A stretch of 21,021 nucleotides of DNA. Source: a virus. Of this stretch, positions 4-17,743 are shown in pieces. A model generated the notes under the pieces. It was not told the DNA's origin and did not search any database. It saw only the letters and a list, made by a program, of their open reading frames with translations. Location of the stretch: positions 1 to 21,021 of IMG/VR virus record IMGVR_UViG_3300012008_000033. One strand, 5' to 3'. The position numbers and the translations under genes are program-made. How positions within the stretch are numbered: position 1 is the first letter of the stretch; each line of letters opens with the position of its first letter.

Positions 4-636
4 GTGACATGGGTGAACGACGGTCCATGGCAGACGAAACTTGAAATCGAAAAATGGTCAGCTGAAGGAACGCTGGGCAGGGAGATCGAGGAGGCCTTCG
101 CGCCGTATAAGCAGCGGGAGATGAAGCTCACGCAGGACACGGTGGGCATCAACTGTCGCCACCACATGAAGTATGAGATGCCCTTTTTGGGGGAGATGGT
201 TGCGTGGCTGAGCCACAAGGCCGGCGAATTACTGAAAGAACATGAAGAGGCGGTGAGTAAGCGCGACGCGTTTGGCTCCCATCGCAGCGTTCAGAAACGG
301 CTCCAGTACCTCTATGAGCGGCCAGTGCGCGATGCCGTCGCTTCTCGAACAAGCATCACGGGCTCGGAACAGGTCAACCAGTATGAATGGGTGGACAGCC
401 CGCCCCGAACCGTCGCCGATGTTCAAAACGAGATCGCTAACTTGATGGCCACGCTTCCCAAGCTCCAGGCGCTCGTGCGCTGCATCGTGGGCGATGACTA
501 CGCCGAATACCGCATGAAGGCGTTTCCTCGCGTTGCAGGCGGGAAGAGCTGGCGACCACCGCCCACGCCCGATCCCGTTTCTGTGTCAGCCCCCTATTAT
601 GACGAAGGCCCCCCGCCCCCATCGAGCCAACGTTGA
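4..636 (+). CDS. Hypothetical protein, possibly 5'-truncated
   Basis: I do not recognise this protein. The frame is open to the left edge of the window, so the GTG at 4 may not be the true start and the gene may begin upstream. The product is at least 210 residues: mixed and largely helical in the first 150 residues with many charged residues, then a proline-rich tail (roughly residues 180-210) that looks disordered. No membrane segment, signal peptide or metal-binding motif is visible. It ends just before the promoter region of the replication-relaxation gene, so it probably belongs to an operon that lies mostly to the left. No function is proposed. Confidence 0.6.
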   Translation: MTWVNDGPWQTKLEIEKWSAEGTLGREIEEAFAPYKQREMKLTQDTVGINCRHHMKYEMPFLGEMVAWLSHKAGELLKEHEEAVSKRDAFGSHRSVQKRLQYLYERPVRDAVASRTSITGSEQVNQYEWVDSPPRTVADVQNEIANLMATLPKLQALVRCIVGDDYAEYRMKAFPRVAGGKSWRPPPTPDPVSVSAPYYDEGPPPPSSQR

Positions 637-671: not shown

Positions 672-1562
672 ATGACCATAACCCGTGATGTCCTGTCCTA
701 TAAACCAACTCGGGAAGTCTTTAGCGCTATCGGGCGCTACCATTACCTCACGGTTCCCCAGCTTCAGCGCCTGCTATATCAGGGTCGGCTGCGTTCCTAC
801 GTCCAAGGCTCGCTCAATAAGCTTCAGGCTGCGGGCTACGTCGACAGTAAGGATCAGACTCTCGTCAGTGACACCGGCCGGCCGCTGAGGGTTTGGACAT
901 TCACCACCCAGGGCGCGCGAACACTCAGCCAAATGGGCTTTAGTGATCTGCCGGTCATGCACCAACGGCTCAACCGCTCCGCCTTCATGCTCGATCACGA
1001 TCTGGACGTCAACGATGCGATGATCGTCTGTGAACTGCTCTCGACTCGCTATAGCGTCGAACTTATTGGGTTCAAAACCGATAACCAGCTCCACAAAACG
1101 CCAACGAGCGTCATCCTACCTGACGGCAGTAAGACCAACGTTATTCCGGACGGTTGGGTCTGCTATGGCTTCGGCGGCACCAAGGCTGCTTACGCCATCG
1201 AGGTCGACCGCGGCACTGAGAACCGCTTCAAATGGCAGAACAAGGTGCGCTCGTTTGTCGCGTTCGCCTCGGGCAACCCCTCCCCTTATGAGATCGCTTT
1301 TGGTGAAAAGTCGCTAACGGTCTTGGTCATCGTCAAGCCGGCCCAGCTGCGCTCCATCAAAGAGCCACAGGCGCGGCTCGAGGATCTCAAGCGCTGGACT
1401 GAAGCCGAGCTATTAGTGCTTGGCAAGCAGAATTGGGGGTCGCTCTTTCGCTTCACGGTTCAACGAACTGATCAGACCGATCCCTCGATCTTCTTTGGCG
1501 GGGCGCATTGGGTAGCAGCGTTTGACCCTACTCCGCGATCGCTGCTGGAGGGAGTGCTGTAA
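672..1562 (+). CDS. Replication-relaxation family protein
   Basis: This is a 296-residue protein of the replication-relaxation type (Pfam Replic_Relax), known from plasmids and integrative elements of Gram-positive bacteria, where it is linked to plasmid replication and DNA relaxation. Residues about 8-80 look like a winged helix-turn-helix (AIGRYHYLTVPQLQRLL, then a wing before VWTFTTQGARTL). The second half carries a PD-(D/E)xK-like pattern: Asp160 in VIPDGW, Glu177 and Asp179 in AIEVDRGTE, Lys191 in WQNKV. I chose ATG 672 over the upstream frame opening at 633 because the family-like sequence begins there and a weak promoter would start transcription near 668. It is followed after one base by the VirD4/TraG-like ATPase, a pairing typical of mobile elements. 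Nuclease activity is inferred from the motif, not shown. Confidence 0.75.
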   Translation: MTITRDVLSYKPTREVFSAIGRYHYLTVPQLQRLLYQGRLRSYVQGSLNKLQAAGYVDSKDQTLVSDTGRPLRVWTFTTQGARTLSQMGFSDLPVMHQRLNRSAFMLDHDLDVNDAMIVCELLSTRYSVELIGFKTDNQLHKTPTSVILPDGSKTNVIPDGWVCYGFGGTKAAYAIEVDRGTENRFKWQNKVRSFVAFASGNPSPYEIAFGEKSLTVLVIVKPAQLRSIKEPQARLEDLKRWTEAELLVLGKQNWGSLFRFTVQRTDQTDPSIFFGGAHWVAAFDPTPRSLLEGVL

Positions 1563-1563
1563 T

Positions 1564-2988
1564 GTGCCCCAGCCCAAGCTCTACATCGGACACACCGGCT
1601 GGCTCTTCCTCAAAAAGAAAATCCACCTGCAAGGGCCGGGGATCACGTCCCACAAACACGTCATCGGGCTCACGGGTCAGGGGAAGAGCAAGTTCCTTGC
1701 TCACTGTTATGTCGAGTTGGTTTCACAGGGTATCGCATGCTCACTTGTTGACCCGCACTCGGATCTTGCAGATGACGTGCTCGGTATGCTCGCTGACCGT
1801 GGGCTTGCCGACGATCAACTCCTCTTTGTGGACTTTGGTAGACGCGATCGATTCGTACCATTCAACGTATTGCGCCAACCGTACCCCGATGACAAAGTCG
1901 CTTCGATCATGGTTGAAGCGTGCAAGCGAGTCTGGCCGGCGCTAGCCGATGGCAACGCGCCGATGTTTGAAAATGTCATGCTCGCTGGCTGCCATACCCT
2001 GATTGAAAACAAACTCCCCTTCGCCGCACTACCGCTATTCATCTCTGACAGTCGCTATAGAGCCAAGTTACTCGCTAATGTGACCGACCCCTTAGTGGTT
2101 CAGTACTTCAAATCGACATTCGACCGCTTGTCGATCAAGGATCAACTCGACCAGGCGGGATCTTCTCTCAGGCGAGTCTTCGATCTCGTTCAGCCGCACG
2201 AGCTGCGCTACACGATCGGCCAGACCGAGAACGTTCTCAACTTCAGGGAGATCATCGACAGTAACCGCTCAGCCATCTACGACTTAGGGGGCCTTGAGGA
2301 ACAGACCCAGAAGTTTCTCGGAGCGCTCATCTCGCACGGCTATGAAGTGGCCAGCCTCTCACGAGCCGACCAACCCGAGCGCGATCGCGTTCCTCATCAT
2401 CTGTTCCTTGACGAGTTCTCGATGTTTAGCGCTACTACGGAGGGAGCGCTAGGGCGCATCCTCTCTTTAGCGCGAAAATACAAGTTAACGCTTTGGTTAG
2501 CGCATCAGACGTGGGGACAGTTATCGGATCGACTCGCTAACGCTCTTCAAAACACGACAAGGGTAGCGTTTGCGCTGGGCTTCACTGACGCCCGGTTAAT
2601 GGCTCCCAACTTCACCAACTACGATCCCTACCTCGTCAAGCACATCGTTCAGGAGGGGGAGGAGAGGTCACACCCAATCTTCTTTGGCGTCCAAGACACG
2701 TTCGAGAAAATGGCGACGATTCTCCAGACCCTCAAACCGCGGCACATCTTCGTGCGCTATCCAGAACTTGAACGGCATTGGTGGTTTTGGACTAAGCCGG
2801 CGATCAAGACGATCCAGCTCAAGACACCGACCGTGCAGACAAGCGGGGCGAGGGTGGCCGATCTCCGAGAACGTTATGCCCAGATGTATCTCAAGCCGCG
2901 AGAAGAGGTCACCAAGGCGGTCGACGAGTTGCTTAGAACCGAGATGGATTCAGCTGAACCCCCACCTACGAGCAGTTATCGGGACTAG
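1564..2988 (+). CDS. VirD4/TraG-like DNA-translocating ATPase (coupling-protein family)
   Basis: This 474-residue AAA+/RecA-like ATPase belongs to the type IV secretion coupling-protein/HerA-FtsK superfamily, which pumps DNA. Walker A is GLTGQGKS (residues 35-42) and Walker B is LFLDEF (280-285). DPHSDLADD follows the second strand as in this family, and LWLAHQTWGQL resembles the conserved sensor segment near the end of the ATPase domain. Unlike classical VirD4 or TraD it has no N-terminal membrane helices, so it should be soluble. I start it at GTG 1564: GGAGGGA lies about 10 bases upstream and the previous gene stops at 1562. An alternative TTG at 1522 would add 14 residues. Coupling with the replication-relaxation protein suggests DNA processing or transfer of the phage or plasmid genome; the actual role in a phage is unknown. 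Confidence 0.8.
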   Translation: MPQPKLYIGHTGWLFLKKKIHLQGPGITSHKHVIGLTGQGKSKFLAHCYVELVSQGIACSLVDPHSDLADDVLGMLADRGLADDQLLFVDFGRRDRFVPFNVLRQPYPDDKVASIMVEACKRVWPALADGNAPMFENVMLAGCHTLIENKLPFAALPLFISDSRYRAKLLANVTDPLVVQYFKSTFDRLSIKDQLDQAGSSLRRVFDLVQPHELRYTIGQTENVLNFREIIDSNRSAIYDLGGLEEQTQKFLGALISHGYEVASLSRADQPERDRVPHHLFLDEFSMFSATTEGALGRILSLARKYKLTLWLAHQTWGQLSDRLANALQNTTRVAFALGFTDARLMAPNFTNYDPYLVKHIVQEGEERSHPIFFGVQDTFEKMATILQTLKPRHIFVRYPELERHWWFWTKPAIKTIQLKTPTVQTSGARVADLRERYAQMYLKPREEVTKAVDELLRTEMDSAEPPPTSSYRD

Positions 2989-3017
2989 TTGACATAAACC
3001 ACAGTTTTGTCTAGTAT
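2989..3017 (+). promoter_or_regulatory. Sigma70-like promoter for the ArdC-like gene
   Basis: TTGACA (2989-2994), a 17 bp spacer and TAGTAT (3012-3017) directly follow the stop codon of the ATPase gene. The -35 box is part of the recurring TTGACATAA motif. Predicted start is near 3024, which leaves an 85-nt leader before the ATG at 3109. Confidence 0.7.
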
Positions 3018-3108
3018 ATGAGAGATCGAGTGGCGTCTCAAAAAACTAGGAGTAGTCACCTCACGTGCCGCTGAGAGAATCAAACTCCCGCTGTCTCGAT
3101 CACTTTGA

Positions 3109-4050
3109 ATGTCATACGAAAACCGAAGACAGCAACTCCACGAGGCCTTACCAGAACCGCCAATTAGCGAAGCGCCTCGACCAAGTTCCGCCCCAGTCGA
3201 TATCTTCGACGCCCGAACCGATAAACAGAAGCAAGTCCTCGACACGCTCCAAGCCGGAGTAGAGGGCATCCTCACCTCAGAGGGCTATCAGGCGTATCTC
3301 AAGACGATGTCAAAGTTCCACCGCTACTCATTCGCCAATAGTCTGTTGATTCACGTCCAGAACCCCGAGGCCACTCACGTCGCCGGGTACCAAAAATGGA
3401 AGCAACTCGACCGCCAGGTGCGTAAAGGCGAGAAGGCAATCAAGATCTTTATTCCCTTCCGCAAGAAGACTGAAGACCCCGAGACAGGGGAGGAGCGCTG
3501 GAGAGTCACAGGCTTTGGTCTAGGCAGTGTCTTCGACATCAGCTCGACGGACGGAGAGCCCCTTCCGGAGCCTCCTGCGATCACTGAGTCACATGAGGTC
3601 ACAGACGTATCTCGTGAGGTCAACAAACGGCTCTCACGCTATCTGATCGATCAGGGGCTACTACTGGAGAGCAAGGACTTCCCCGGCCACGCACACGGCT
3701 TCTGGAACCCCACCAAGAACCAGATCGTGATCAGGCAGAACAAGGACGTCGATCCGCTCAATATCAGTAAGACCAAGACGCTGCTCCACGAAGGTGCTCA
3801 CGCACTGGCTAATCATCAAAACGCCGACGAGCGCCAGGACGCCGAGGTGGTTGCTGAGAGCGCTGCCTATGTGGCGTTCTCGCATTTTGGAGTCGATACC
3901 GCTAACTACAGCTTTTCTTATGTAGCCGGCTGGGGACAGGATGCCCAGCGCTTACGCAAGAATCTGGGTGAAGTGCAGAAGATCTCTAACGTCCTTATTT
4001 CGGCGATCGAGGGCACAGAACCGACAGAACCTGATAATGATCTAGATTGA
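3109..4050 (+). CDS. ArdC-like antirestriction protein with zinc metallopeptidase domain
   Basis: The 313-residue product has an N-terminal ArdC/DUF1738-like single-stranded DNA binding domain (about residues 35-150; FHRYSFANSLLI, AGYQKWKQLDRQVRKGEKAI). An IrrE/ImmA-type (M78-like) metallopeptidase domain follows, with HEGAH at residues 227-231 and a downstream acidic segment (EVVAESAAYVAF) that could supply the third zinc ligand. ArdC of conjugative plasmids protects incoming DNA from restriction, so this gene fits the neighbouring transfer-type genes. The first 30 residues are low in order. The ATG at 3109 has no Shine-Dalgarno; an AGGAG at 3048-3052 is too far away to serve it, so translation initiation is unclear. 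Antirestriction is inferred from the family. Confidence 0.8.
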   Translation: MSYENRRQQLHEALPEPPISEAPRPSSAPVDIFDARTDKQKQVLDTLQAGVEGILTSEGYQAYLKTMSKFHRYSFANSLLIHVQNPEATHVAGYQKWKQLDRQVRKGEKAIKIFIPFRKKTEDPETGEERWRVTGFGLGSVFDISSTDGEPLPEPPAITESHEVTDVSREVNKRLSRYLIDQGLLLESKDFPGHAHGFWNPTKNQIVIRQNKDVDPLNISKTKTLLHEGAHALANHQNADERQDAEVVAESAAYVAFSHFGVDTANYSFSYVAGWGQDAQRLRKNLGEVQKISNVLISAIEGTEPTEPDNDLD

Positions 4051-4784: not shown

Positions 4785-5336
4785 ATGAAAAACTATAGAA
4801 GCAGATTACATCGCAACAAAATCGGTTCAAATCAATTCCGCCTCAAGCAGGATCGAGTCTTTGGCCTCAAGCACAAGACCGCTTGGAATGTCGCCTTAGC
4901 GATTAACTTCATTCTCTTAGTCGCTATCGTCGGCACTCGGGTCAAATCACTTGAGGCAATTCATATTGAGTCGCCGTTGGCCACCACCGCCTATGCGATG
5001 GAAGACGATCAAGCGCCTCGTGTCAAAGCAACGACTCCAGAACAAAAGGACATCGTCGACTATATCAATCAGGTGTTCGGTCAGGACGCTGATAAAGCCC
5101 TCCAGTTGCTCTCTTGCGAAAATCACCGACTCAATCCCAGTGCGGTCAATACCGCTGGCAACTTTCCAGCCGGTAGCAGGGACATCGGCGTCTTTCAGAT
5201 CAATGAGTACTGGCAAAAGACCAACGCTAAGTATCTCTTCAACTGGAAAATCAATGTGCTCGTCGCGAAGCAGCTCTTCGACGAGAACCACGGTTCATTC
5301 AATCTTTGGACCTGTGGCAGAAAGCTAGGGCTTTGA
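4785..5336 (+). CDS. Membrane-anchored lytic transglycosylase (SLT/lysozyme-like)
   Basis: A 183-residue protein with a basic N-terminus, one membrane helix (about residues 34-52, WNVALAINFILLVAIVGT), a short linker and a C-terminal lysozyme-like transglycosylase domain. The probable catalytic acid is Glu112 in LSCENHRLNP, followed by the family pattern DIGVFQINEYWQ and a final segment NHGSFNLWTCG. Cys111 and the cysteine in LWTCG could form a disulfide. Such enzymes cleave the glycan strands of peptidoglycan without water. The N-in anchor would place the domain outside the membrane. Possible roles are host lysis, cell-wall opening for DNA entry, or the lytic transglycosylase typical of type IV secretion loci, which would suit the coupling-type ATPase nearby. 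The ATG follows the preceding stop by three bases and has no clear Shine-Dalgarno. Confidence 0.8.
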   Translation: MKNYRSRLHRNKIGSNQFRLKQDRVFGLKHKTAWNVALAINFILLVAIVGTRVKSLEAIHIESPLATTAYAMEDDQAPRVKATTPEQKDIVDYINQVFGQDADKALQLLSCENHRLNPSAVNTAGNFPAGSRDIGVFQINEYWQKTNAKYLFNWKINVLVAKQLFDENHGSFNLWTCGRKLGL

Positions 5337-5594: not shown

Positions 5595-6245
5595 ATGACA
5601 AACGAATTACCAACTATCAAAATACAAAATAAAGATTACGTTCTCGTCAAAGACAGAGTGGCCTATTTCAACGACACTTATGCCAACGGCATGATCCAAA
5701 CCAAGGTCGAACAGGTCGAAAAAGGACTCTGGATCTCCGAGGCAATCGTAACGCCTGACGCTGAAAAGCCAATGCGCTTTTTCACCGGACATTCGCAAGC
5801 TCGCGAAGACAACGGCATGATCAATAAGACATCAGCCGCCGAGAACTGCGAAACATCAGCAGTCGGAAGGGCTCTGGCCATGATGGGCATCGGAGTCGTC
5901 GAGTCAATCGCTAGCGCTGATGAAGTCACTAAAGCAGTGAATCAGCAGCCAACAGGTGAGCAGATTATCGCTAAGGCAGCCGCTAAGCGCGAGCCAACTG
6001 AGGATCACATCTGCCAGATTCACGGTGTTCAAATGAAACCTAGGATCTCGCCTCAAGGTGGGAACTACTGGGATCACAGACATAAGAATACAAACGATGA
6101 GTGGGAAAGATGCATGGGTTACGGATGGAAGGGCGACATGAAACGCTCCGATCCAACGCCAAGAATCGTTGAGGAAGCTAAAGTACAGTACACGGCACCA
6201 ACGATCGAGGATGATATGTGGCCGGATGATCCATCAGAAGTCTAA
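5595..6245 (+). CDS. Probable phage single-strand annealing or recombination-associated protein
   Basis: A 216-residue protein. Residues about 5-110 carry a pattern common in phage recombination-type proteins: RVAYFNDTYANGMIQTKVE, a repeated strand region, then ENCETSAVGRAL (83-94) and MGIGVVESIASADEV. I recall this motif from phage proteins near replication genes; it resembles the core of ERF/Sak-type single-strand annealing proteins, but I cannot confirm the assignment. The C-terminal part has a likely zinc-binding module: Cys140 and His143 (CQIHG), His161/His163 and Cys173 (ERCMGYGWKG). A strong AAAGGGGGTGA lies ahead of the ATG. A single-stranded DNA binding or recombination role would suit the nearby nuclease and helix-turn-helix genes. 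Confidence 0.55.
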   Translation: MTNELPTIKIQNKDYVLVKDRVAYFNDTYANGMIQTKVEQVEKGLWISEAIVTPDAEKPMRFFTGHSQAREDNGMINKTSAAENCETSAVGRALAMMGIGVVESIASADEVTKAVNQQPTGEQIIAKAAAKREPTEDHICQIHGVQMKPRISPQGGNYWDHRHKNTNDEWERCMGYGWKGDMKRSDPTPRIVEEAKVQYTAPTIEDDMWPDDPSEV

Positions 6246-6778: not shown

Positions 6779-6984
6779 GCTGGTCGTGGGAGCCCGCATC
6801 GAGCTCAAAGGGTAAAGGCTCGGCGGTCACTTCCAAACGAGCGTACTCCCTAGGAGTTACTGAGGGAGAGAGAGTTCGCCTTTGGTACCACCTGTTCCTT
6901 AGGCGAGCGCGAGCCATGTCCTGACACCACAGTGAGGGATAGGCATCTGAGCAGGTTTACGCTCTCTCAGTAGTTCCAATATCT
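6779..6984 (+). ncRNA. Candidate structured RNA or structured leader (non-coding gap)
   Basis: These 206 bases have no credible gene but many complementary arms: GAGCC (6790-6794)/GGCTC (6817-6821), GGGAG (6788-6792)/CTCCC (6846-6850), CTCCCT (6846-6851)/AGGGAG (6863-6868), TCGCCT (6876-6881)/AGGCGA (6901-6906) and CTGAG (6947-6951)/CTCAG (6966-6970). Some arms compete with each other. A promoter and T-tract are not obvious, so it may be processed from the operon message or act as the leader of the nuclease gene. I recognise no known RNA family, and there is no tRNA T-loop. Confidence 0.4.
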
Positions 6985-7395
6985 ATGAACAACAATCGAA
7001 TAGCCCACATGACGGTGATTGAGCTCAAGCCGACCGAACACCAGATTCAGACCCAAATCATGAATTATCTGAGGATCAAGGGGTGGTTCGTGATGAGGCT
7101 CAACTCAGGCAAGATCCCGATAGGGGAGGGGAGATCCAGGCGCATGATCCAGCTGGCCGAGGTCGGCACCCCGGATCTGATGTGCTTCAAGACTATTCCA
7201 GGCGCTGCTCTCTATGAGGGGGAAAATCAATCATGGAGGCTCGGTAGATATGTATCTCTCTTCTTCATCGAGGTAAAACGGCCAAAGATGAAGGCAACTC
7301 TTCACCAGACCATGAAGATGAAAGAACTTGAATCCTTCGGCGCGAAGTGCTTTGTAGCGACGTCGATCGAGGACGTGGAGGAGGCGATTACATGA
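6985..7395 (+). CDS. VRR-NUC domain nuclease
   Basis: A 136-residue protein that matches the VRR-NUC type of PD-(D/E)xK nuclease. TEHQIQTQIMNYLRIKGWF (residues 17-35) and MRLNSG match the start of the fold. Then come VGTPDL with Asp64, FIEVKRP with Glu96 and Lys98, and the later Gln in LHQTMKM and a GAKCFVA strand. Asp, Glu and Lys would form the metal-binding catalytic site. VRR-NUC proteins in phages are thought to be structure-specific endonucleases, for example Holliday-junction resolvases. The neighbouring annealing-type and DNA-binding proteins support a recombination or repair role. The ATG at 6985 has no Shine-Dalgarno; an internal ATG at 7009 is possible. It overlaps the next ORF by ATGA. 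Confidence 0.8.
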   Translation: MNNNRIAHMTVIELKPTEHQIQTQIMNYLRIKGWFVMRLNSGKIPIGEGRSRRMIQLAEVGTPDLMCFKTIPGAALYEGENQSWRLGRYVSLFFIEVKRPKMKATLHQTMKMKELESFGAKCFVATSIEDVEEAIT

Positions 7396-7505
7396 AGCAG
7401 ATTCTGCTCTGGATCGCTATCTATCTCTTCGTCATTGCTCTCTCGTTTTACCTGTTCATCTATGCCTATATCTATGTCATGGTTTTTTTCTACTGGCACC
7501 TATGA
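7392..7505 (+). CDS. Tiny membrane protein (37 aa)
   Basis: The ATG overlaps the TGA of the nuclease gene (ATGA at 7392-7395) and the stop overlaps the next ATG, so it should be translated by coupling. After MKQ almost every residue is hydrophobic or aromatic (ILLWIAIYLFVIALSFYLFI), giving one long membrane helix with many tyrosines. A phage function such as holin-like membrane disruption or superinfection control is possible, but nothing specific is seen. Confidence 0.6.
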   Translation: MKQILLWIAIYLFVIALSFYLFIYAYIYVMVFFYWHL

Positions 7506-7660
7506 TCGATTTTGAACTCACCATCGAAATAACAGGATCACAGCCCGCAACGTGTCAGGACTGTGGAGCTGAGCTTAAGCCCATGGGCTATGACGACGAC
7601 CTGAGATGCTCGAGCAACTGTGTTTGGAAGAAGTATTGGAAGGAGAGGAAGGACAAATGA
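7502..7660 (+). CDS. Small zinc-ribbon-like protein (52 aa)
   Basis: A 52-residue protein with four cysteines in a zinc-binding layout: Cys18-x2-Cys21 (TCQDCGAEL) and Cys36-x3-Cys40 (RCSSNCVWKKYW), ending in a strongly basic tail. It overlaps the previous gene by four bases and the next one likewise. A small zinc ribbon with a basic tail could bind nucleic acid or a host protein such as RNA polymerase; this is inference. Confidence 0.7.
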   Translation: MIDFELTIEITGSQPATCQDCGAELKPMGYDDDLRCSSNCVWKKYWKERKDK

Positions 7661-7782
7661 TCCTCGCGCTTTTGATTTTCATCCCGGCCGGCTTGCCGAT
7701 CGTCTGGCTCTTTGTTCATTTCAGCCTGAGGTACATCGACATGAAGAAAAAGAAGATCGAGATCATTTTTGAGATGGAGTGA
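7657..7782 (+). CDS. Tiny single-pass membrane protein (41 aa)
   Basis: ATGA overlap with the zinc-ribbon gene and an AAGGAGAGGAAGGA purine run upstream support translation. One membrane helix (ILALLIFIPAGLPIVWLFV, residues 2-20) is followed by a basic then acidic tail (DMKKKKIEIIFEMEME-like). An N-out, C-in topology is likely from the lysine cluster. Unknown function. Confidence 0.6.
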   Translation: MILALLIFIPAGLPIVWLFVHFSLRYIDMKKKKIEIIFEME

Positions 7783-7792
7783 CGCAGAATCT

Positions 7793-7909
7793 ATGATTTA
7801 CCACATTAAGGACAAACTATATCGCATCTTAACCTTTATACGATCTCGTCGCTGGATGCCCTGGAGCGTGGTGAGATTCATCGACAAGTTTCGCTACAAA
7901 TTACTGTGA
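7793..7909 (+). CDS. Tiny basic protein (38 aa)
   Basis: A 38-residue, strongly basic protein with tryptophans (FIRSRRWMPWSVVRFIDKFR). No good Shine-Dalgarno, but it lies 10 bases after the preceding gene and its stop is directly followed by the AAAGGAGGTGAT site of the next ORF. An amphipathic basic helix at the membrane is possible. It may be a real small gene or a chance frame. Confidence 0.4.
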   Translation: MIYHIKDKLYRILTFIRSRRWMPWSVVRFIDKFRYKLL

Positions 7910-7926
7910 AAGGAGGTGATACATGT

Positions 7927-8007
7927 ATGCCAGATGTGCTAAAATTATTTATTTTATTATTAGGTATTATCATCTTTCTTATTATTTGTGCGAGGGGAGG
8001 TAAATAA
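7927..8007 (+). CDS. Tiny membrane protein (26 aa)
   Basis: A perfect AAAGGAGGTGAT (7909-7920) precedes two ATGs, 7923 and 7927, in different frames. The 7927 frame gives a clean membrane helix (VLKLFILLLGIIIFLIIC) with a basic end (ARGGK). The 7923 frame gives a tyrosine-rich peptide without a clear fold, so I prefer 7927. The sequence is distinctly AT-rich. Confidence 0.5.
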   Translation: MPDVLKLFILLLGIIIFLIICARGGK

Positions 8008-8064
8008 ATGAGATTATTAGAATGGATTTATACATGGCTCTGGTGTAGGAGTGAGAGGAGGTGA
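8008..8064 (+). CDS. Possible 18-residue peptide
   Basis: The ATG follows the previous stop with no gap and has GGGGAGG about 8 bases upstream. The peptide is tryptophan-rich (MRLLEWIYTWLWCRSERR). Its last codons contain the GAGGAGGTGA used by the next gene, so it may exist to bring ribosomes to that gene, or may be a chance frame. Confidence 0.3.
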   Translation: MRLLEWIYTWLWCRSERR

Positions 8065-8067
8065 CTT

Positions 8068-8235
8068 ATGAAAATCAACATTGACCAATTTATTAAAGAC
8101 TACTTACCCGAGATTATTCTCGCCGGCGTGTTCATCCTGATCGGCACGTTCTTAGGTCCGGTCGGCATCATCGTCGTTCTGGGAGCGATTGCCTGGATAG
8201 TCTGGACACTCATTCAATTCGTGAAGAAGCAGTAG
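8068..8235 (+). CDS. Small two-helix membrane protein (55 aa)
   Basis: GAGGAGGTGA at 8055-8064 supports the ATG at 8068. The protein has a polar N-terminus (MKINIDQFIKDYLPE) and then two hydrophobic stretches (about 16-33 and 34-50, separated by a GP turn), ending FVKKQ. This hairpin layout resembles small holin-like or phage membrane proteins. No family is recognised. Confidence 0.65.
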   Translation: MKINIDQFIKDYLPEIILAGVFILIGTFLGPVGIIVVLGAIAWIVWTLIQFVKKQ

Positions 8236-8242
8236 TCCATTG

Positions 8243-8287
8243 TGAGCTGGGAAGCTTTGACCCTGCCGTTTTAGTCTTCCCGGCTCA
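8243..8287 (+). repeat. Long imperfect inverted repeat between two membrane-protein genes
   Basis: GAGCTGGGAAG (8244-8254) pairs with CTTCCCGGCTC (8276-8286), 11 pairs with one T-G wobble, extended by T8243-A8287, around a 21-nt loop. There is no T-tract after it; a Shine-Dalgarno follows. It may be an RNA-processing or stability element, or a partial terminator. Confidence 0.6.
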
Positions 8288-8306
8288 GAGGGGAGGTGAA
8301 TATGAA

Positions 8307-8492
8307 ATGATTCAATTACTAATCGATTTACTTATTGGAGGACTCGTCATCTATTTGATCTACTGGATACTCGGGATGTTGGCTCTTCCTCAGCCTGTTA
8401 AGCAGGTGATCCTCGTCGTTGTGGCGATCATCGCGATTATCTGGCTCTTGAGTGCGCTCGGAGTGACAGGCGGTATGCCGTCTCTTAGATAG
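8307..8492 (+). CDS. Small two-helix membrane protein, Thivi_2564-like
   Basis: A 61-residue protein with two membrane helices (LIDLLIGGLVIYLIYWILGML, in outline, and VILVVVAIIAIIWLLSAL) around PQPVKQ. The arrangement resembles the Thivi_2564 family of small membrane proteins often found in phages and environmental bacteria. GGGGAGGTGA at about 8290-8299 sets the ATG at 8307. Placed last in a run of small membrane proteins and just before the packaging genes, it is a candidate holin, but sequence alone cannot show that. Confidence 0.7.
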   Translation: MIQLLIDLLIGGLVIYLIYWILGMLALPQPVKQVILVVVAIIAIIWLLSALGVTGGMPSLR

Positions 8493-8500
8493 TCAGTTGC

Positions 8501-8521
8501 CACCGGGGATAGACCTCGGTG
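8501..8521 (+). terminator. Strong 8-bp hairpin, possible operon end
   Basis: CACCGGGG (8501-8508) pairs with CCTCGGTG (8514-8521) around a 5-nt loop, with one G-T wobble. No T-tract follows, so it is not a canonical intrinsic terminator. It sits between the last small membrane gene and the promoter of the packaging genes, where an operon end would be expected. Confidence 0.4.
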
Positions 8522-8534
8522 AGAGCTGATCATA

Positions 8535-8563
8535 TTGACATAATGTTCTATTTCTGCTAGGTT
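8535..8563 (+). promoter_or_regulatory. Promoter of the packaging genes
   Basis: TTGACA (8535-8540, in TTGACATAA), a 17 bp spacer and an extended TGC-TAGGTT (-10 at 8558-8563). Start is predicted near 8570. GAGTA (8566-8570) and TACTC (8578-8582) form an inverted repeat across the start point, a typical operator position. The ATG at 8588 lies about 18 bases downstream without a Shine-Dalgarno. Confidence 0.6.
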
Positions 8564-8587
8564 CTGAGTACCGCAAATACTCAACCT

Positions 8588-8977
8588 ATGACTCTAAAAC
8601 AAAAAGCCGCTGTCAAGAAGATCACAGAAAATCACGGAAATGTTAGTCGGGCAATGCTCGACGTTGGTTACTCTCCCAATACAGCTAAAAAGCCTTCAAA
8701 TCTTACAAATTCAAAAGGCTTCAAAGAACTCCTCGAAGAGTATTTCCCGGATACAGACCTCTTCAAAGTAGGGGTAGAGGGGCTCCATGCCACTAAGCTG
8801 GCCACCTCCTTCACTGAAGCTGATCAGTTCATTCCGGACTATCCAACTCGCCACCGCTATTACGAAACCGCCCTAAAGCTCAAGCGTTACCTCGGACCCG
8901 AGACATTGATTCAAAACAATGTGGGGGGAGACATGAGCCTTGAGCTGATCGGAGGCCATGCAGGCAGTCTTACATGA
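8588..8977 (+). CDS. terS: Terminase small subunit
   Basis: A 129-residue protein placed directly before, and overlapping, the large terminase. Residues 1-45 form a helix-turn-helix of terminase small-subunit type (LKQKAAVKKITENHGNVSRAML, in outline, then DVGYSPNTAKKPSNLTNSKGF), as in proteins that recognise the packaging site on concatemeric DNA. The middle is helical (KELLEEYFPDTDLFKVGVEGL) and a region around RHRYYETALKLKRYLG may serve oligomerisation. The small subunit would form a ring and stimulate the large subunit. The last 20 bases overlap the large-subunit gene, which suggests coupled translation. The leader lacks a Shine-Dalgarno. Confidence 0.75.
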   Translation: MTLKQKAAVKKITENHGNVSRAMLDVGYSPNTAKKPSNLTNSKGFKELLEEYFPDTDLFKVGVEGLHATKLATSFTEADQFIPDYPTRHRYYETALKLKRYLGPETLIQNNVGGDMSLELIGGHAGSLT

Positions 8978-10310
8978 AACACAGCTTGAAGTCGCCAGAG
9001 ATACGCACCGCTTCAAAGTCCTCTGTGCCGGCCGCAGGTGGGGAAAGTCAGTCCTCGCGCAGCTCATCACGCTCCAATGGGCAGTCCAGAAGCCGGGGCT
9101 CTACTGGATCGTCTCACCCAGTTACAAGCAGTCAAAGCAAATCCATTGGCGTGGTCTCCAGCAGATCATCCCGCGCGACTGGGTCGTCAAAACCAATCAG
9201 AATGAGCTCTCAATCACTCTCAAGAATGGTTCGATCATTGAGCTCAAGGGCGCAGAGAATCCCGATGCGCTCCGGGGTGTCAAGCTCCGAGGCCTCGTCA
9301 TCGATGAGATTGCTTCTATTAGAAACTGGGACTGGCTCTGGTCTGAGGTATTACGTCCGACGCTTACTGACTACGCGGCCCCTGCTCTCTTTATATCTAC
9401 GCCTAAAGGCTTCAACCACTTCTACGAACTCTTTACTCAGGGACAAGACTCAGCTAGTGACCAAGAACATAGTGATTACAAAAGCTGGCGTTTTACGAGT
9501 TACGAAAACCCCTACATCCCCAACGCAGAGATCGACAAAGCGAAAGACGAGCTCTCCGAAAACACCTTCGCCCAAGAGTATATGGCCGATTTCCGCAAAT
9601 ACACTGGCCTCGTTTATAAAGAGTTCGACCGTAAAATCCACGTCCAAGAGCTCCCAGACTTCCAGCCCGTCTACTACATTCGAGGACTTGATCGAGGTTT
9701 CACCAACCCTACCGCTGTCCCGATCATTGAGGTCAACTCAGACGGGGACTGGTATCAAACGCACGAGCTCTATAGCTCAAGTCTCACCAACGTCCAGCTC
9801 AACGAAGAGCTCACTCGACTTACCCAAGACGTGGCGATTGGCTCCTACGAGCTCTCGACAATGGACTCTGCGGCCGCCGGCGACATCCAAGAGCTCAACG
9901 ACCTCGGCCAAGACTTCATCAGCGTCCGCAAGGAATCAGGCGAAGCGATGGTCAACTACGTCAGTTGGAAGATCCAAAAGTTCGCCGATCGTCTCAGGAT
10001 CAACGCCACAGGAAAGCCGCGGTACTACTGCCATCCCCGAAACGTCAAAACCGTCTATGAGTTCGAGCGCTACGCGTGGCCGGATAAAGTCATCGACATC
10101 AACCAACCAGAAGCGCCGATCAAAGCCAACGACCACATGATGGACGCTCTGGCCGATCTCAACGCGATGTATATGCATGCCTACGAGCCGGCAGTCAGGC
10201 ATCCGTGGGACGGTAAGATCCCCGGCACATTCGTGCCACCGTCGCTACCAGATGAAGATGACAACGAGTGGGGAACACCGATGCGTGACTATGGATCAGA
10301 CGAATTTTGA
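8958..10310 (+). CDS. terL: Terminase large subunit (ATPase and nuclease)
   Basis: The 450-residue packaging motor. The ATPase domain has Walker A GRRWGKS (residues 25-31), Walker B LVIDE (113-117, with the catalytic Glu117) and the coupling motif STPKG (147-151). The C-terminal RNase H-like nuclease has Asp245 in GLDRG, Asp303 in TMDS and Asp392/Asp396 in NDHMMDAL, the expected metal-binding acids. Length is normal for a two-domain terminase. It docks on the portal, drives DNA into the capsid with ATP and cuts the concatemer. The start is the ATG at 8958, inside the end of the small-subunit gene. The gene is complete and no key residue is missing. Confidence 0.95.
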   Translation: MQAVLHETQLEVARDTHRFKVLCAGRRWGKSVLAQLITLQWAVQKPGLYWIVSPSYKQSKQIHWRGLQQIIPRDWVVKTNQNELSITLKNGSIIELKGAENPDALRGVKLRGLVIDEIASIRNWDWLWSEVLRPTLTDYAAPALFISTPKGFNHFYELFTQGQDSASDQEHSDYKSWRFTSYENPYIPNAEIDKAKDELSENTFAQEYMADFRKYTGLVYKEFDRKIHVQELPDFQPVYYIRGLDRGFTNPTAVPIIEVNSDGDWYQTHELYSSSLTNVQLNEELTRLTQDVAIGSYELSTMDSAAAGDIQELNDLGQDFISVRKESGEAMVNYVSWKIQKFADRLRINATGKPRYYCHPRNVKTVYEFERYAWPDKVIDINQPEAPIKANDHMMDALADLNAMYMHAYEPAVRHPWDGKIPGTFVPPSLPDEDDNEWGTPMRDYGSDEF

Positions 10311-10524
10311 CAAACTCATGCAGGAGTATTTTCCTGATATTCATCGGCTCAACGAGCTGAGTAAGACTGACGTGCACCTGTGGGCGCTCTTGCTGCTTCT
10401 CCTTGAGAACAACACCAAGCAGCTCACCGGCCGAGTGGAGGTGTTCTACACCAAGGGGCATATCGATGCGATCAAGCAGACGATCGACATGCTGGCTTTC
10501 AAGGCCTCTAGACCAGGCTATTGA
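10291..10524 (+). CDS. Small hypothetical protein behind terL
   Basis: A 77-residue protein. I start it at ATG 10291, 20 bases inside the end of terL, because sequence upstream in this frame is only the shadow of terL. It is helical and leucine-rich (MDQTNFDKLMQEYFPDIHRL, then DVHLWALLLLLLENNTKQL). The segment LMQEYFPD recalls ELLEEYFPD in the small terminase, which may be chance or a sign of shared binding. The leucine run is too broken by polar residues for a certain membrane helix. Position between terminase and portal suggests a packaging or head-assembly accessory. No family is recognised. Confidence 0.65.
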   Translation: MDQTNFDKLMQEYFPDIHRLNELSKTDVHLWALLLLLLENNTKQLTGRVEVFYTKGHIDAIKQTIDMLAFKASRPGY

Positions 10525-10547
10525 CAATGTTGTGTAAAGTATATAAA
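10513..10547 (+). promoter_or_regulatory. Promoter of cassette A
   Basis: TTGACA (10521-10526) with TATAAA (10542-10547; 15 bp spacer) or TAAACT (10544-10549; 17 bp). It is preceded by CCAGGC, and the 14-mer CCAGGCTATTGACA (10513-10526) recurs at 10916-10929. Transcription should start about 10 bases before the terminator hairpin. Confidence 0.55.
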
Positions 10548-10566
10548 CTCATGTTGACTATAAGCG

Positions 10567-10591
10567 GTCGCCCCACCGGGCGGCTTTTTTT
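10567..10591 (+). terminator. Intrinsic terminator touching the next ATG (cassette A)
   Basis: GTCGCCC (10567-10573) pairs with GGGCGGC (10578-10584), seven pairs including one T-G, 4-nt loop, then T7 (10585-10591). The ATG of the next gene begins at 10592, directly after the last T. Confidence 0.8.
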
Positions 10592-10903
10592 ATGTATCCG
10601 AACAACTTTACAGCATTGATTCAAGCACTTCAGCCTCAACAGCAAATGCAGGGGTTTGGAGGACTTCAGGCTCTCAGTAGATCTGGTGGCAGCGCGCAAT
10701 ATAGCCCGCAACAACTTGCTCCCCCCGCGGTGAATCCTGCAATAGCCCAACATAATCAGATCAAGTCACAAATCGCCGACATCTTCTCGCACCTAAACTA
10801 TCTCGGGGTACCTACCCCACCAAATCCCTTTGATTCTGGATATACTCCGGATCATCTCGCACATTGGAAGGCGATGACGGCGGGCCTCTTCGGATCGAAA
10901 TAA
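10592..10903 (+). CDS. Hypothetical small protein, Gln/Pro-rich N-terminus
   Basis: A 103-residue protein not recognised as any family. Residues 1-55 are rich in Gln, Ser, Gly and Pro (ALQPQQQMQGFGGL, QYSPQQLAPPAVNP) and probably flexible. The second half looks folded (IKSQIADIFSHLNYLGVP, GYTPDHLAHWKAMTAGLFG). The ATG directly follows the T-tract of a terminator and has no Shine-Dalgarno, so expression would need readthrough or an unusual initiation mode. It has its own promoter cassette on each side. Its place between terminase and portal suggests a virion or assembly role. Confidence 0.65.
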   Translation: MYPNNFTALIQALQPQQQMQGFGGLQALSRSGGSAQYSPQQLAPPAVNPAIAQHNQIKSQIADIFSHLNYLGVPTPPNPFDSGYTPDHLAHWKAMTAGLFGSK

Positions 10904-10915
10904 TATCACGCACGT

Positions 10916-10953
10916 CCAGGCTATTGACATTCATGCTTGGTTCTTGACATAAT
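10916..10953 (+). promoter_or_regulatory. Promoter of cassette B, two overlapping -35 motifs
   Basis: TTGACA (10924-10929) with CATAAT (10948-10953) at an 18 bp spacer. That CATAAT is itself the end of a second TTGACATAAT (10944-10953), which might act as a -35 with TACAAA (10963-10968), but the 13 bp spacer is poor. The 14-mer CCAGGCTATTGACA repeats that of cassette A. Confidence 0.5.
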
Positions 10954-10971
10954 CGATACGACTACAAAAAT

Positions 10972-11004
10972 GGTCGCACCCTAAAAGGGGAGCGGCCTTT
11001 TTTT
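10972..11004 (+). terminator. Intrinsic terminator of cassette B
   Basis: GGTCGC (10972-10977) pairs with GCGGCC (10992-10997) with one T-G, then an A-A mismatch and CCC (10979-10981)/GGG (10988-10990), followed by T7 (10998-11004). The next ATG is at 11016, 11 bases later, without a Shine-Dalgarno. Confidence 0.75.
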
Positions 11005-11015
11005 GTGCCTAACAC

Positions 11016-11240
11016 ATGGACACCGTGATCATTCTTGCCCTCATCATCTTTCTTATCTGGCGCGAGTGGCTCTCATTCCACGAACGCGAGAACCTTGTCG
11101 ATCGCCTCATGGCGCGCAATCTCCCTGAATACAAAGACAACGTCGCTCCTGAGCCTAATCACGTCGATCCAGCGCCATCAACGGTGTTCGATCTAGACGA
11201 GGCGAAGGAGGAAATAATCAATGGACCAGAAGAAGAGTAA
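11016..11240 (+). CDS. Small membrane-anchored acidic protein
   Basis: A 74-residue protein with one N-terminal membrane helix (about residues 3-18, VIILALIIFLIWREWL), a charged middle (FHERENLVDRLMARNLPEY) and an acidic tail rich in Glu, Asp and Pro. Small proteins of this build often precede portal genes in environmental phages, but I cannot name a function. The last 20 bases overlap the portal gene and contain its AGGAGGAAATAA site (from about 11206), so it is translationally linked to it. Confidence 0.65.
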   Translation: MDTVIILALIIFLIWREWLSFHERENLVDRLMARNLPEYKDNVAPEPNHVDPAPSTVFDLDEAKEEIINGPEEE

Positions 11241-13254
11241 GAAACCAAAAGACGACAAAGTTCTCAATGCCAAGCTTGAGCGCTTCTGGAATGGAGCGCA
11301 GGCAGCCCGTCGAGAAATCGACTGGCGATGGTTCAATTATGACCTCTGGGTCTCAGGCAACCACTACGCTAAGTGGGACAAAAACACCCAACAAATCATC
11401 ACCTCGCCTCGCACCGACGGTAAGCCTAAGATCGTCATCAATAAGACCTATTCGATTCTTCGAGCGGTTCGAAACTATGTCGTCAGAAATGAGCCTAAGC
11501 CCGACGTTACGCCTCACAATCTCACCCCTGACACCGTCAAGGAAGCAGCGCAGCTCAATAAATACCTCGACTATCTCTATAGCCGCTTAGGGCTTCGTAT
11601 GAAGCTTCGAGCGACCGTCTGGCATGCGCTCAAGTATTCAGTGGGCTACTGGCAGGTGCTTTACGACGGCGACGCCGAGGATGGCAAGGGCGAGATCCAA
11701 GTCAATGTGATCGATCCCTATGACCTTTACTGGGACGCAGCCGCTCGCACGCCTGAAGAGGCTCGCTTTGCCATCCTAGCTGTTCGACGCAATCTCTCTG
11801 ATCTCAAAGAGGACGAGAAATACAAGAACGTCGACTGGGACACCATCCAGCCAGATAACGCGCTCGCATCTTCATCGCTCAAAGGCAGACTTCTTCAGTA
11901 CGAGCGCGGCACGCCGGCATTCAACAAAGACACCGAAGACACCACGGTCATCCTCAAAGAGTTTTGGATCAAAGAAAAGCAGTCTGATAAAGACGCCGGC
12001 TCGACCGGTTATAAGATCCGCATCGTCGCCAAGATAGGGGAGACCATCATCCGCAATGAGTTGACCGAGCTCGATCGCTTGCCGTTCTTCCGAGTGTTGT
12101 CCGATGTCGAGCCGCTTCAGATGTACGGTCAGGGCTGGGTCAAAAACATCATTCCACTCAACCGCCTCTATGAGCGCTTAGCGTCCTCAGTGGCCGAATA
12201 CAACGACATCATGAATAAGGGTAAGTGGGTCGCCGATAAGGGTGCCGGCGTTAGGATCATCAACAACGAGAATGGCCAGATCATCGAGAAAAAGCGGGGT
12301 TTCGAGGTTGCTCAGGCAGCTATCCAGCCACTCGCCGCAGCGATCTTTCAGCAAATGGACTACACGATCAGGGATATGGAGGACATCTCCAGCTTCCACG
12401 ACGCATCGCTTGGCCGCATCCCTACCGGAGCAAAGTCAGGCGTCTCGATCGAGGCGTTGCAAGAAGGCGATTCCAACAACCTCAGTGAGCTGACCGAGAA
12501 CACTGAAGACTTCTTAGCGCGTGTTTATGAGTATGCCCTCTATCTGGCATCCCAAAAATATCAGTTCGCCCGCGACGTGGTCATTCAGAGTAAGACAGGG
12601 GAAAAAGAGTTTCTCAAGATAATTGGCGAAAACGCTTCCACCGTCGATGCACAGGGCGCACCGTCCGGAGCAACAGTCATCAAGAAGAAAAACGTTGTCG
12701 ATGTTAAGATCGATTCATGGCTTGCTTACACCTCAGAAGGACGCCGCAGCGCGATCAAGGATCTCGCCGGCCTCGTGCCGAATCTCCCCGTTCAGTACAT
12801 CCTAGAAGCCTATGAGACCGGCAATATTGCCGACATCATCCAGCAAATGCAGGAAGACCAGGCTAAGCAGCAACAAGCGCAGATGGCACAGGAGCAACAA
12901 CAACAAGCTCAGCAAGCGCAGATGCAAGGTCAACAACAACAGGCTAACATCCAAGCCCAGTCACAAGCCAAGATGCAGCAACAGCAGGCACAACAGCCGC
13001 AGCCAGCCGGCGCAGCTCAGGCGATCGCCATCATTCGGCAGATCATCAACGGTCAGATCCCGCAGCAAATGCCACAAGTCTTAGGCCCCGACTTCGTCAA
13101 CTATTTCGACAAGTTCCTGAGCAGTCCAGAAGCTCAACAGCTTCCACCGGAGATCCAGAAAGTCCTCCAGACTATTCGCGATCACGGTGTTGCGAACATG
13201 CAGGGAGGCGCTCAACCATCGCCCATGGCTCAGCAGGCTCCTACAGGAGCGTGA
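11221..13254 (+). CDS. Portal protein (P22-like)
   Basis: A 677-residue protein that forms the twelve-subunit ring at the capsid vertex through which DNA passes. Typical of large P22-type portals are an early WFNYDLWVSGNHYAKW region, KIVINKTYSILRAVRNYVV, VNVIDPYDLYWDAAA and a long helical stem around the middle (IIPLNRLYERLASSVAEYNDIMN, in outline). Residues about 541-600 are extremely rich in glutamine and probably form a flexible or coiled barrel-like tail, and the last 25 residues are also low in order. A strong AGGAGG lies before the ATG. It follows terminase and precedes scaffold and capsid, as expected. Confidence 0.85.
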   Translation: MDQKKSKKPKDDKVLNAKLERFWNGAQAARREIDWRWFNYDLWVSGNHYAKWDKNTQQIITSPRTDGKPKIVINKTYSILRAVRNYVVRNEPKPDVTPHNLTPDTVKEAAQLNKYLDYLYSRLGLRMKLRATVWHALKYSVGYWQVLYDGDAEDGKGEIQVNVIDPYDLYWDAAARTPEEARFAILAVRRNLSDLKEDEKYKNVDWDTIQPDNALASSSLKGRLLQYERGTPAFNKDTEDTTVILKEFWIKEKQSDKDAGSTGYKIRIVAKIGETIIRNELTELDRLPFFRVLSDVEPLQMYGQGWVKNIIPLNRLYERLASSVAEYNDIMNKGKWVADKGAGVRIINNENGQIIEKKRGFEVAQAAIQPLAAAIFQQMDYTIRDMEDISSFHDASLGRIPTGAKSGVSIEALQEGDSNNLSELTENTEDFLARVYEYALYLASQKYQFARDVVIQSKTGEKEFLKIIGENASTVDAQGAPSGATVIKKKNVVDVKIDSWLAYTSEGRRSAIKDLAGLVPNLPVQYILEAYETGNIADIIQQMQEDQAKQQQAQMAQEQQQQAQQAQMQGQQQQANIQAQSQAKMQQQQAQQPQPAGAAQAIAIIRQIINGQIPQQMPQVLGPDFVNYFDKFLSSPEAQQLPPEIQKVLQTIRDHGVANMQGGAQPSPMAQQAPTGA

Positions 13255-13386
13255 TCGTTCTCTGGCTTCTCCTGATCGCATCGGGTCAGGGGGAGCAAGG
13301 GAATAATCCCTTGAAAATATAACGGTCGACAGTCGTCTCGGGAGACGTAAAACAGCGTATCGGCACGTTGAAAGGAGGAAAAAAGT
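13255..13386 (+). other. Non-coding leader with hairpins before the scaffold gene
   Basis: This 132-base gap has no gene. AAGGGA (13297-13302)/TCCCTT (13307-13312) and CGTCTC (13334-13339)/GAGACG (13342-13347) are perfect 6-bp hairpins. It ends with the strong AAAGGAGGA site of the scaffold gene. There is no T-tract, so RNA stability or processing is more likely than termination. Confidence 0.5.
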
Positions 13387-14058
13387 ATGGAAGACGTAAA
13401 AGAACAGGCAGAGCAAACTGCTATTGACTCGTCAGTCAGTGAAGAAACCACTCAGGATCAAGCCCAAACCGCTGAATCAGCGGACGTAGCCGACCCTGAA
13501 AACCAAGCGGTGCCTTACTCCCGTTTCAAAGAAGTAAACGAAGAGCTTAAGAATAACCGCGGCACGGTCGAGCAGTTGCAAAAAAAGCTTGGCGAGTTGG
13601 AGTCGCGCTTTGCGCCACAACAACAGGTCAACCCACAGGTTGAGCAAGTTAAGCAGCAGCTAAAAGACCTCGGCTTTATAGACAGGTCAGAGGTTGATCG
13701 CATGAACCAGCAACAGCAGGAGAACATGCGCATAGCATCGCAACTGGAGAAGCTTGAAGGCCAATACGACGGTAAAGACGGAAGACCTAAATTCGATCGC
13801 AAGTCGGTCGTAGAGTTCGCCCTCTCTCAGGGCATTGGTAATCCGGAGACTGCGTATAAGGCTTTACATGAAAAAGATCTCATGAACTGGCACATCCAGC
13901 AAGCAATCTCTAAGTCGGGCGGGACAAAGTCTGAAGCCAGTGATGGCTCAGGCTCATCCCAAGCGGCCGGGACATCGGACCAAGATCTAAAAACAGCTAT
14001 AGGCCAGGGCGACAAAAGCGCGCTCAGGACGTATCTGAAACGCTTCGCTCCTAAATAG
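13387..14058 (+). CDS. Capsid scaffold protein
   Basis: A 223-residue, acidic, Gln- and Glu-rich protein directly before the major capsid gene. The first 45 residues are acidic and disordered. Residues about 45-75 (FKEVNEELKNNRGTVEQLQK, then LGELESRF) form a coiled coil, with a further helical stretch to about residue 130. A Ser/Gly-rich linker leads to a short basic C-terminal helix (KSALRTYLKRFAPK). That is the usual build of scaffold proteins, whose basic tail binds the capsid shell during assembly and which leave before DNA fills the head. The AAAGGAGGA site gives strong translation. Confidence 0.8.
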   Translation: MEDVKEQAEQTAIDSSVSEETTQDQAQTAESADVADPENQAVPYSRFKEVNEELKNNRGTVEQLQKKLGELESRFAPQQQVNPQVEQVKQQLKDLGFIDRSEVDRMNQQQQENMRIASQLEKLEGQYDGKDGRPKFDRKSVVEFALSQGIGNPETAYKALHEKDLMNWHIQQAISKSGGTKSEASDGSGSSQAAGTSDQDLKTAIGQGDKSALRTYLKRFAPK

Positions 14059-14096
14059 GGCGAGGACTCTCTAAAAAGAAGGAGGTGAAATAACAT

Positions 14097-14993
14097 ATGG
14101 CACAATCAACAGCACTAAAGACCTACGATGCAATCGGTAATCGCGAAGACCTCACAGACGTCATCGCAACGATTACCCTGCATGATACGCCTCTTTTCTC
14201 CGGACTGGAGAAAGTGAAGGCTAATGGTCGTACTCATGAATGGCAGATCGACACTCTTTCAACTGGCGCAGATAACGCACAGATTGAAGGTGCAGACTTC
14301 ACGTTTGCAATCCCCGCCGCTCGAACCAGAACGTCCAACAACACGCAGATTTTCACGAAACAACTTGAAGTTTCAGAAACACAGCGTGCTGTCTCAGTCG
14401 CAGGACTGGAGGATGAGTACGCATATCAGATGGAAAAACGCATGAAAGAAATCGCTACCGATATTGAGAAAGCTCTCATCACCGGAACCGGTAACTCAGG
14501 CGCATCTGGTACAGGTCGAAGACTCAAAGGCTTCCTTAGTTTCATCACGACTAACGTCGAGACAGGAACTGGTACAGCCGCTCACTATTTGACGGAAACC
14601 CTCTACAACAACTTGCTCCAGTCAATCTGGGCGAGTGGAGGTAGACCAGATAATACCTACGTTAACGGATTCCAAAAACGGCAAATCTCATCGTTCTCAA
14701 CACCGAATACGAGATATGTCGACATGGATAACTCAAATAAGTTGAAAAACACCGTTTCAGCGTATGAGTCAGATTTCGGCGTTCAAACGATCAATCTTGA
14801 TCCGTTCATGGACACCGACAAGACCCTTGTTCTGCAAAAGGACATGAACAAGATTGCAGTTCTCCGAGGCATTAAGCCCGTGGACGTAGCAACAATAGGC
14901 GACGCTAAACGCGGCGCTTTGGTAGGTGAATTAACACTGGAAGTCCGCAATGAAGCGGCTGACGGTAAGAACACCAATCTATCTACTTCTTAG
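14097..14993 (+). CDS. Major capsid protein, SU10/DUF5309 type
   Basis: A 298-residue HK97-fold capsid protein of the SU10 (DUF5309) kind. Supporting motifs are DAIGNREDLTDVIATITLHD (residues 10-29), TPLFSGLEKV, EWQIDTL, the EGADFTF segment and KQLEVSETQRAVSVAGLEDE in the shell domain, then DIEKALITGTGNS. Length is normal. It is preceded by the strongest ribosome binding site here, AAGGAGGTGA at about 14079-14088, as expected for the most abundant protein. A terminator (15020-15045) follows, so the scaffold-capsid message can end there. Several hundred copies would assemble on the scaffold. Confidence 0.9.
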   Translation: MAQSTALKTYDAIGNREDLTDVIATITLHDTPLFSGLEKVKANGRTHEWQIDTLSTGADNAQIEGADFTFAIPAARTRTSNNTQIFTKQLEVSETQRAVSVAGLEDEYAYQMEKRMKEIATDIEKALITGTGNSGASGTGRRLKGFLSFITTNVETGTGTAAHYLTETLYNNLLQSIWASGGRPDNTYVNGFQKRQISSFSTPNTRYVDMDNSNKLKNTVSAYESDFGVQTINLDPFMDTDKTLVLQKDMNKIAVLRGIKPVDVATIGDAKRGALVGELTLEVRNEAADGKNTNLSTS

Positions 14994-17727: not shown

Positions 17728-17743
17728 AAGGAGGTGACGACAC

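Follow-up and report, generated by a model that had tools for sequence, protein, structure and literature searches.

A conjugation-type gene block upstream of the head genes in a lineage of tailed phages

Why would a tailed phage keep genes that are otherwise at home in conjugative elements? The question is raised by IMG/VR viral record IMGVR_UViG_3300012008_000033, a linear contig fragment of 21,021 bp that is analysed here over its whole length (the window) and for which no end repeats are listed. Genes for a Replic_Relax protein, a soluble coupling-type ATPase (T4CP-B) and an ArdC-like protein stand here in front of a clear phage head module (large terminase subunit TerL, portal and major capsid protein, 8958–14993). 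Judged from the sequences, this trio is probably part of a larger conjugation-type module comprising a second coupling ATPase (T4CP-A), Replic_Relax, T4CP-B and ArdC. In our best reading, the module came from conjugative or integrative elements and has been kept by one lineage of tailed phages. It probably lies in the early region, preceded by a block for replication or regulation and followed by the transglycosylase and terminase genes.

All three genes of the trio were found on the plus strand where the original prediction had placed them, and profile scores and motifs agree. Replic_Relax (672–1562) matches PF13814 with an E-value of 7e-12 and 46.2 bits, passing the cut-off of 25.3. T4CP-B, a VirD4/TrwB-type protein of 474 residues (1564–2988; phrog_5156, 3.5e-26), starts at a GTG at 1564 rather than an ATG, directly behind the Replic_Relax stop codon and preceded by a GGAGGGAG ribosome site, as read from the sequence. 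The ArdC-like protein (3109–4050; PF08401, E 1.5e-12) scores 48.2 bits against a cut-off of 22.6 and combines a single-stranded DNA (ssDNA)-binding N-terminal domain with an HExxH metalloprotease domain, whose motif reads HEGAH at residue 227; it also matches the anti-restriction family phrog_7245 (1e-19).

The strongest evidence that the block belongs to phages comes from a second genome, G403 (its locus is called L155), which was reached by a TerL-alignment scan of viral contigs. G403 is a viral record of 45,162 bp that ends with the same 123 bases with which it begins, a terminal repeat. In window orientation it carries T4CP-A at about 6832–8157, Replic_Relax at 8181–9032, T4CP-B at 9029–10450 and ArdC at 11054–12016, then a transglycosylase gene ending at 13468, an early protein gene at 13497–14108, the small terminase subunit TerS, TerL at 18189–19547, and the portal, scaffold and capsid protein genes. 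Ahead of the block are a helix-turn-helix (HTH) gene and a gene whose product may be of a replication type. Identity between the two phages is 31% for Replic_Relax, 31% for the ATPase, 47% for ArdC, 40% for the transglycosylase, 65% for the early protein and 55% for TerL. In G403, T4CP-A is above the T4SS-DNA_transf cut-off, Replic_Relax matches at 8e-18 (65.6 bits) and T4CP-B passes the cut-offs for both TraG-D_C and DUF87. Because the same ordered block occurs in this second, complete genome, part of a conjugation kit appears to be a standing feature of these phages.

Comparison with G403 also points to a gene that the original prediction had missed, so that the trio is real as far as it goes but is probably not the full block. 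ORF 4–636 (plus strand) lies directly before Replic_Relax, as T4CP-A does in G403, and its frame is open to the contig edge, being cut by the contig start. It is 41% identical over 44 residues to the C-terminal part (629–672 of 734) of a coupling ATPase from L035, a Chloroflexota genomic island described below (E 5e-6 pairwise, 5e-4 among 1041 ORFs), and 41% identical over 34 residues to the C-terminus of G403 T4CP-A (E 0.002). This ORF is probably the tail of the second, larger coupling-type ATPase.

The window itself also ties the trio to the phage genes. A promoter-like site before ArdC (2989–3017, plus strand), with spacing read from the sequence, consists of TTGACATAA, a 17-nt spacer and TAGTAT. 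Exact copies of TTGACATAA are found at six positions (642 on the minus strand, 2989, 4074, 4395, 8535 and 10944), in both the trio region and the head region, where 0.14 would be expected; none of 100 shuffled sequences gave six. Codon use in the trio resembles that of the head and late genes (r 0.88–0.92). The slightly higher GC content of the trio (0.56, against 0.52 in the head genes) and the lack of listed end repeats are what an assembly chimera or an adjoining integrated element might show, either of which would have undermined the original prediction. Such an origin is contradicted by an independent, complete relative with terminal repeats and the same gene order, as well as by the six identical boxes across both parts and the like codon use, and we consider it extremely improbable.

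Several features of T4CP-B are those of a coupling ATPase. Its Walker A (GLTGQGKS) and Walker B (HLFLDEF) motifs are intact and conserved in alignments A1, A5 and A7, and its match to TraG-D_C (E 6e-4, 20.2 bits) falls just below the cut-off of 22. The predicted structure (pLDDT 74) finds TrwB-deltaN70 as its best Foldseek fold (E 2.7e-10, TM 0.61 by target), followed by DndH, Cag-beta and HerA, and in the whole-model match the helices at residues 105–228, between the Walker motifs, would correspond to the all-alpha insert of TrwB. No hydrophobic helix was found (maximum 19-residue hydropathy 1.39), and T4CP-B thus lacks the N-terminal transmembrane domain of classical coupling proteins. This absence had been taken as an argument against a coupling role, but the argument is weak, as coupling proteins without a transmembrane domain, such as TraJ of pIP501, form a recognised subfamily that is partnered with separate small membrane proteins (PMC7434980). 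T4CP-B may thus act in coupling even without membrane helices, and candidate small membrane-protein genes are seen just upstream of the coupling ATPase gene in G403, G405 (a second complete phage, see below) and L036 (another Chloroflexota island). T4CP-B resembles the TraJ type in its core, its Walker motifs, its helical block and its lack of a membrane helix; it differs in standing in a tailed-phage genome, in a block with probably two coupling ATPases, and without mating-channel or relaxase genes among the 31 G403 proteins scanned or among the scanned proteins of the window, which is a fragment.

Replic_Relax is a family of little-known function, and the model of the window protein (AlphaFold, pLDDT 79) suggests two domains. 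The N-terminal part is a MarR/PadR-like winged helix (Z about 11), and the second domain is modelled as alpha-beta-beta-beta-alpha-beta. Residues P159-D160, E177-x-D179-R180 and W188 are invariant in four homologues (alignment A6), a pattern that keeps the PD and an E-x-D but has no lysine in the place expected for PD-(D/E)XK. The best Foldseek matches are to FokI (E 1e-4 to 4e-4) at low TM, so that a nuclease-type fold is likely for the modelled second domain, short of proof. The best 50 matches in a VIA comparison of the same model were to winged helices only, with none for the nuclease-like half. Replic_Relax was also considered as the relaxase of pWBG749-type plasmids, but this idea was given up, since the relaxase of that family is a separate gene, smpP (PMC4652767).

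From where did the block come? A search of 85,000 genomes placed the nearest ATPases in Chloroflexota, namely in the islands L035 (Dehalococcoidia, 54% identity) and G016 (50%), both with Replic_Relax directly upstream. L035 and the island L122 share the order of the window with genes that nearly touch or overlap (ATPase 50–54%, Replic_Relax 31–34%), and L036, with an ATPase at 37%, also has Replic_Relax, ArdC and a second coupling ATPase. Unlike the phage block, the island copies stand beside restriction, BREX or integrase genes: type I restriction genes in L035, integrases, a single-stranded DNA-binding protein (SSB) and an AAA_22 ATPase in G016, and a PglX/BREX gene (8e-200) in L036. No head genes were seen in the scanned flanks of L035, G016 or L036 among the family matches listed. 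In an ATPase tree, the window, L035, G016, G403 and L036 form one clade (support 100/99), within which the window groups with L035 and G016 (99/90), apart from G403. Phylogeny thus places phage G403 in the wider clade, but gives Chloroflexota islands rather than a phage as nearest kin, and from this grouping we infer at least one transfer of the cassette between phages and islands. When capsid and TerL profiles were searched against 400 Chloroflexota genomes for prophages, only weak matches were obtained, so the host is suggested by ATPase kinship.

The pairing of Replic_Relax with coupling ATPases extends well beyond these islands. Across the fetched loci, 29 of 31 Replic_Relax matches have a coupling-type ATPase within 200 bp, which indicates tight pairing but gives no unbiased rate, since the loci were picked for the ATPase and several cover the same place twice. 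Plasmids of Bacillus, Niallia, Staphylococcus and Embleya have the pair within conjugation operons, although there a DUF87 ATPase of 810–970 residues is followed by Replic_Relax, whereas in the phage block Replic_Relax precedes the short, soluble second ATPase. A further instance is seen in a 34-kb record classed as viral (IMGVR_UViG_2898945296_000003; L116/L227), in which one of three coupling-type ATPase genes is followed after 20 bp by a Replic_Relax gene; this record may represent a plasmid or an integrative element instead of a virus.

What might such a block do for a phage? ArdC gives a hint. ArdC matches number 1738 plasmid records against 14 phage records, and ArdC-N domains are mostly tied to conjugative elements, whose DNA enters single-stranded; a role in guarding the entering ssDNA has been proposed for these domains (PMC5512222). 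ArdC of R388 is reported to be required in the recipient for overcoming restriction (PMC7213743). With ArdC beside coupling ATPases and Replic_Relax, a role in DNA transfer or mobilisation fits best, and we give it a probability of about 0.45. The winged helix of Replic_Relax would bind a site on phage DNA, which the PD-(D/E)XK-like domain might nick or clamp; Replic_Relax would then pass the DNA to a hexameric coupling ATPase, which, with a membrane partner or the channel of another element, would move it, while ArdC would accompany the DNA or guard it against restriction on entry. The phage would thereby gain mobilisation on top of transfer in virions. A bolder version, in which the lineage has two routes of spread, one by virions and one, as lysogen or episome, through another element's channel with the phage's own coupling ATPases and Replic_Relax while ArdC protects the incoming strand, seems doubtful to us. 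Early-region genes with an HExxH-like motif of the SprT-like zinc protease type are seen in two relatives that lack ArdC (L003, 564–1340; G405, locus L223, 18950–19807), where they perhaps take its place.

A transfer role is favoured by a gene order common to two phages that are only 31–65% identical in these genes, with ATPase and protease motifs intact. Several points weigh against it. The Pfam scan of 31 G403 proteins (a subset of its ORFs) found neither a relaxase nor VirB4 or any other channel gene, so that a helper channel would be needed, and no search for an oriT was made. Cleavage by Replic_Relax is uncertain because E-x-D stands where most nucleases have E-x-K, and the separate smpP gene of the pWBG749 family means that Replic_Relax need not be a relaxase. 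Among 36 related viral records, of which many are fragments, the ATPase was found in G403 and, distantly, in G405 only. That the Chloroflexota pair has type I restriction and BREX genes for neighbours is also compatible with defence.

A defence or competitor-exclusion system is the next reading to consider: a HerA-like motor hexamer and a nuclease-like DNA-binding protein would degrade or block rival DNA, as in superinfection exclusion. The ATPases do match the PADLOC models mad8, HerA and DndH weakly, HerA-type defence ATPases are among the structural and sequence matches, and the Replic_Relax model weakly resembles FokI. The best fold is that of TrwB, above HerA, and Replic_Relax stands constantly by coupling ATPases, including those in conjugation operons of Firmicutes plasmids; the neighbouring ArdC, moreover, counters restriction instead of defending. 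We therefore see defence as possible but clearly less probable than transfer. Slightly less probable again is a role in replication, segregation or packaging, in which Replic_Relax would open or nick the phage origin and the ATPase would act as a translocase in replication or partition. PF13814 is named after a plasmid replication role, the window protein matches phrog_9381 (‘replication initiation by nicking’) at E 0.005, a Replic_Relax protein is annotated alone in Bacillus podophage Pony (PMC3853050), and the G403 block follows a possible replication-type protein; against this, the fold and the constant pairing point to conjugative coupling proteins, and ArdC would be left unexplained.

It is improbable, finally, that the phage carries these genes as passengers without present function, inserted recently from a Chloroflexota mobile element or already in decay. 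The absence of the trio from most related viral records (many partial) and the grouping of the window ATPase with Chloroflexota copies would agree with this, yet reading frames and motifs are intact, gene order is kept across diverged phages, and the promoter box is common to trio and head genes.

Whether the lineage is a phage-plasmid, as had been proposed, was judged from partition and transfer genes. None of ParA/B, relaxase, VirB4 or integrase was found among the scanned G403 proteins, nor was an integrase, relaxase or VirB4 channel found among the scanned proteins of the 21-kb window fragment. The genes do stand in a real phage genome, but the phage-plasmid reading is unsupported. The lineage resembles P1-like phage-plasmids, some plasmid derivatives of which have acquired a relaxase or oriT (PMC10879196), in being a phage with plasmid-type genes; it differs in having conjugation-type genes together with an intact head module, with no ParA/B among the G403 proteins scanned and no plasmid-replication genes seen.

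The components are known singly in phages: Replic_Relax in Pony, a coupling-like ATPase in Bacillus phage G, and ArdC. In the open-licence papers searched, we found no description of such an ordered block from tailed phages. In phage G, a jumbo phage, the coupling-like ATPase gp156 is 23% identical, and gp146 (locus L028, 1061–1885) matches Replic_Relax in an iterated profile (E 8e-62); the two genes are about 5 kb apart with others between them, and neither is annotated as such. What the window and G403 add is a multi-gene conjugation-type block of kept order in tailed phages with a normal head module, and a link between the Replic_Relax family and coupling ATPases that is seen in plasmids, in Chloroflexota islands and in phages. 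Should the block serve DNA transfer, an intact phage would have a second, conjugation-linked route of spread; should it serve defence, it would be a new phage-borne motor–nuclease pair. Either way, the Replic_Relax family becomes testable.

Viral contig scans with the single Replic_Relax, ATPase and ArdC proteins gave no relatives, nor did the close ATPase alignment A5. The close capsid relatives L002–L006 share the head genes, including the portal–scaffold–capsid order, and their contigs stop before the trio position or lack the trio. Upstream of a related TerL, the genome of G405 (44,377 bp, with a terminal repeat of 146 bp) codes for a winged-helix protein, an integrase, a SmaI-like nuclease and a distantly related coupling-like ATPase. 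The winged-helix protein could not be confirmed as Replic_Relax (hhalign probability 1.9%). In this temperate relative, the SmaI-type restriction endonuclease gene adjoins the phage integrase gene (L223, 13292–14350 and 14468–15574).

In the remainder of the window, the features described here from the transglycosylase to the major capsid protein are on the plus strand. As predicted, a lytic transglycosylase with a predicted membrane anchor, a hydrophobic helix near residue 33, lies between the trio and the head module (4785–5336; SLT_3, weak at E 0.003) and belongs to the early block shared with G403, whose homologue matches at E 1.3e-5. A conserved phage early protein (5595–6245; phrog_11717, E 6e-26), with its 65% identical counterpart at the same position in G403, and a VRR-NUC type endonuclease (6985–7395; phrog_93, E 1.5e-15) follow. 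TerS (probable; phrog_51, weak at E 0.04) and TerL (phrog_2, E 1e-45) span 8588–10310, and the portal, a probable scaffold (by position only) and the major capsid protein span 11221–14993 (phrog_156, 6e-49; phrog_1328, 2e-85). Scans for Rfam families and tRNAs gave no match in the window. The nuclease-to-terminase interval, about 900 bp at 7396–8306, holds only very short frames, several of them for membrane-like small peptides. Downstream of the capsid gene (15442–19234) are a SAM-methyltransferase-like gene and a glycosyltransferase gene; related contigs carry varying sets of such genes at the same place, with one glycosyltransferase recurring. Close to the right contig edge (20555–20915), imperfect 51-bp repeats (AACACCACAGG...) resemble those of fibre or adhesin-like proteins.

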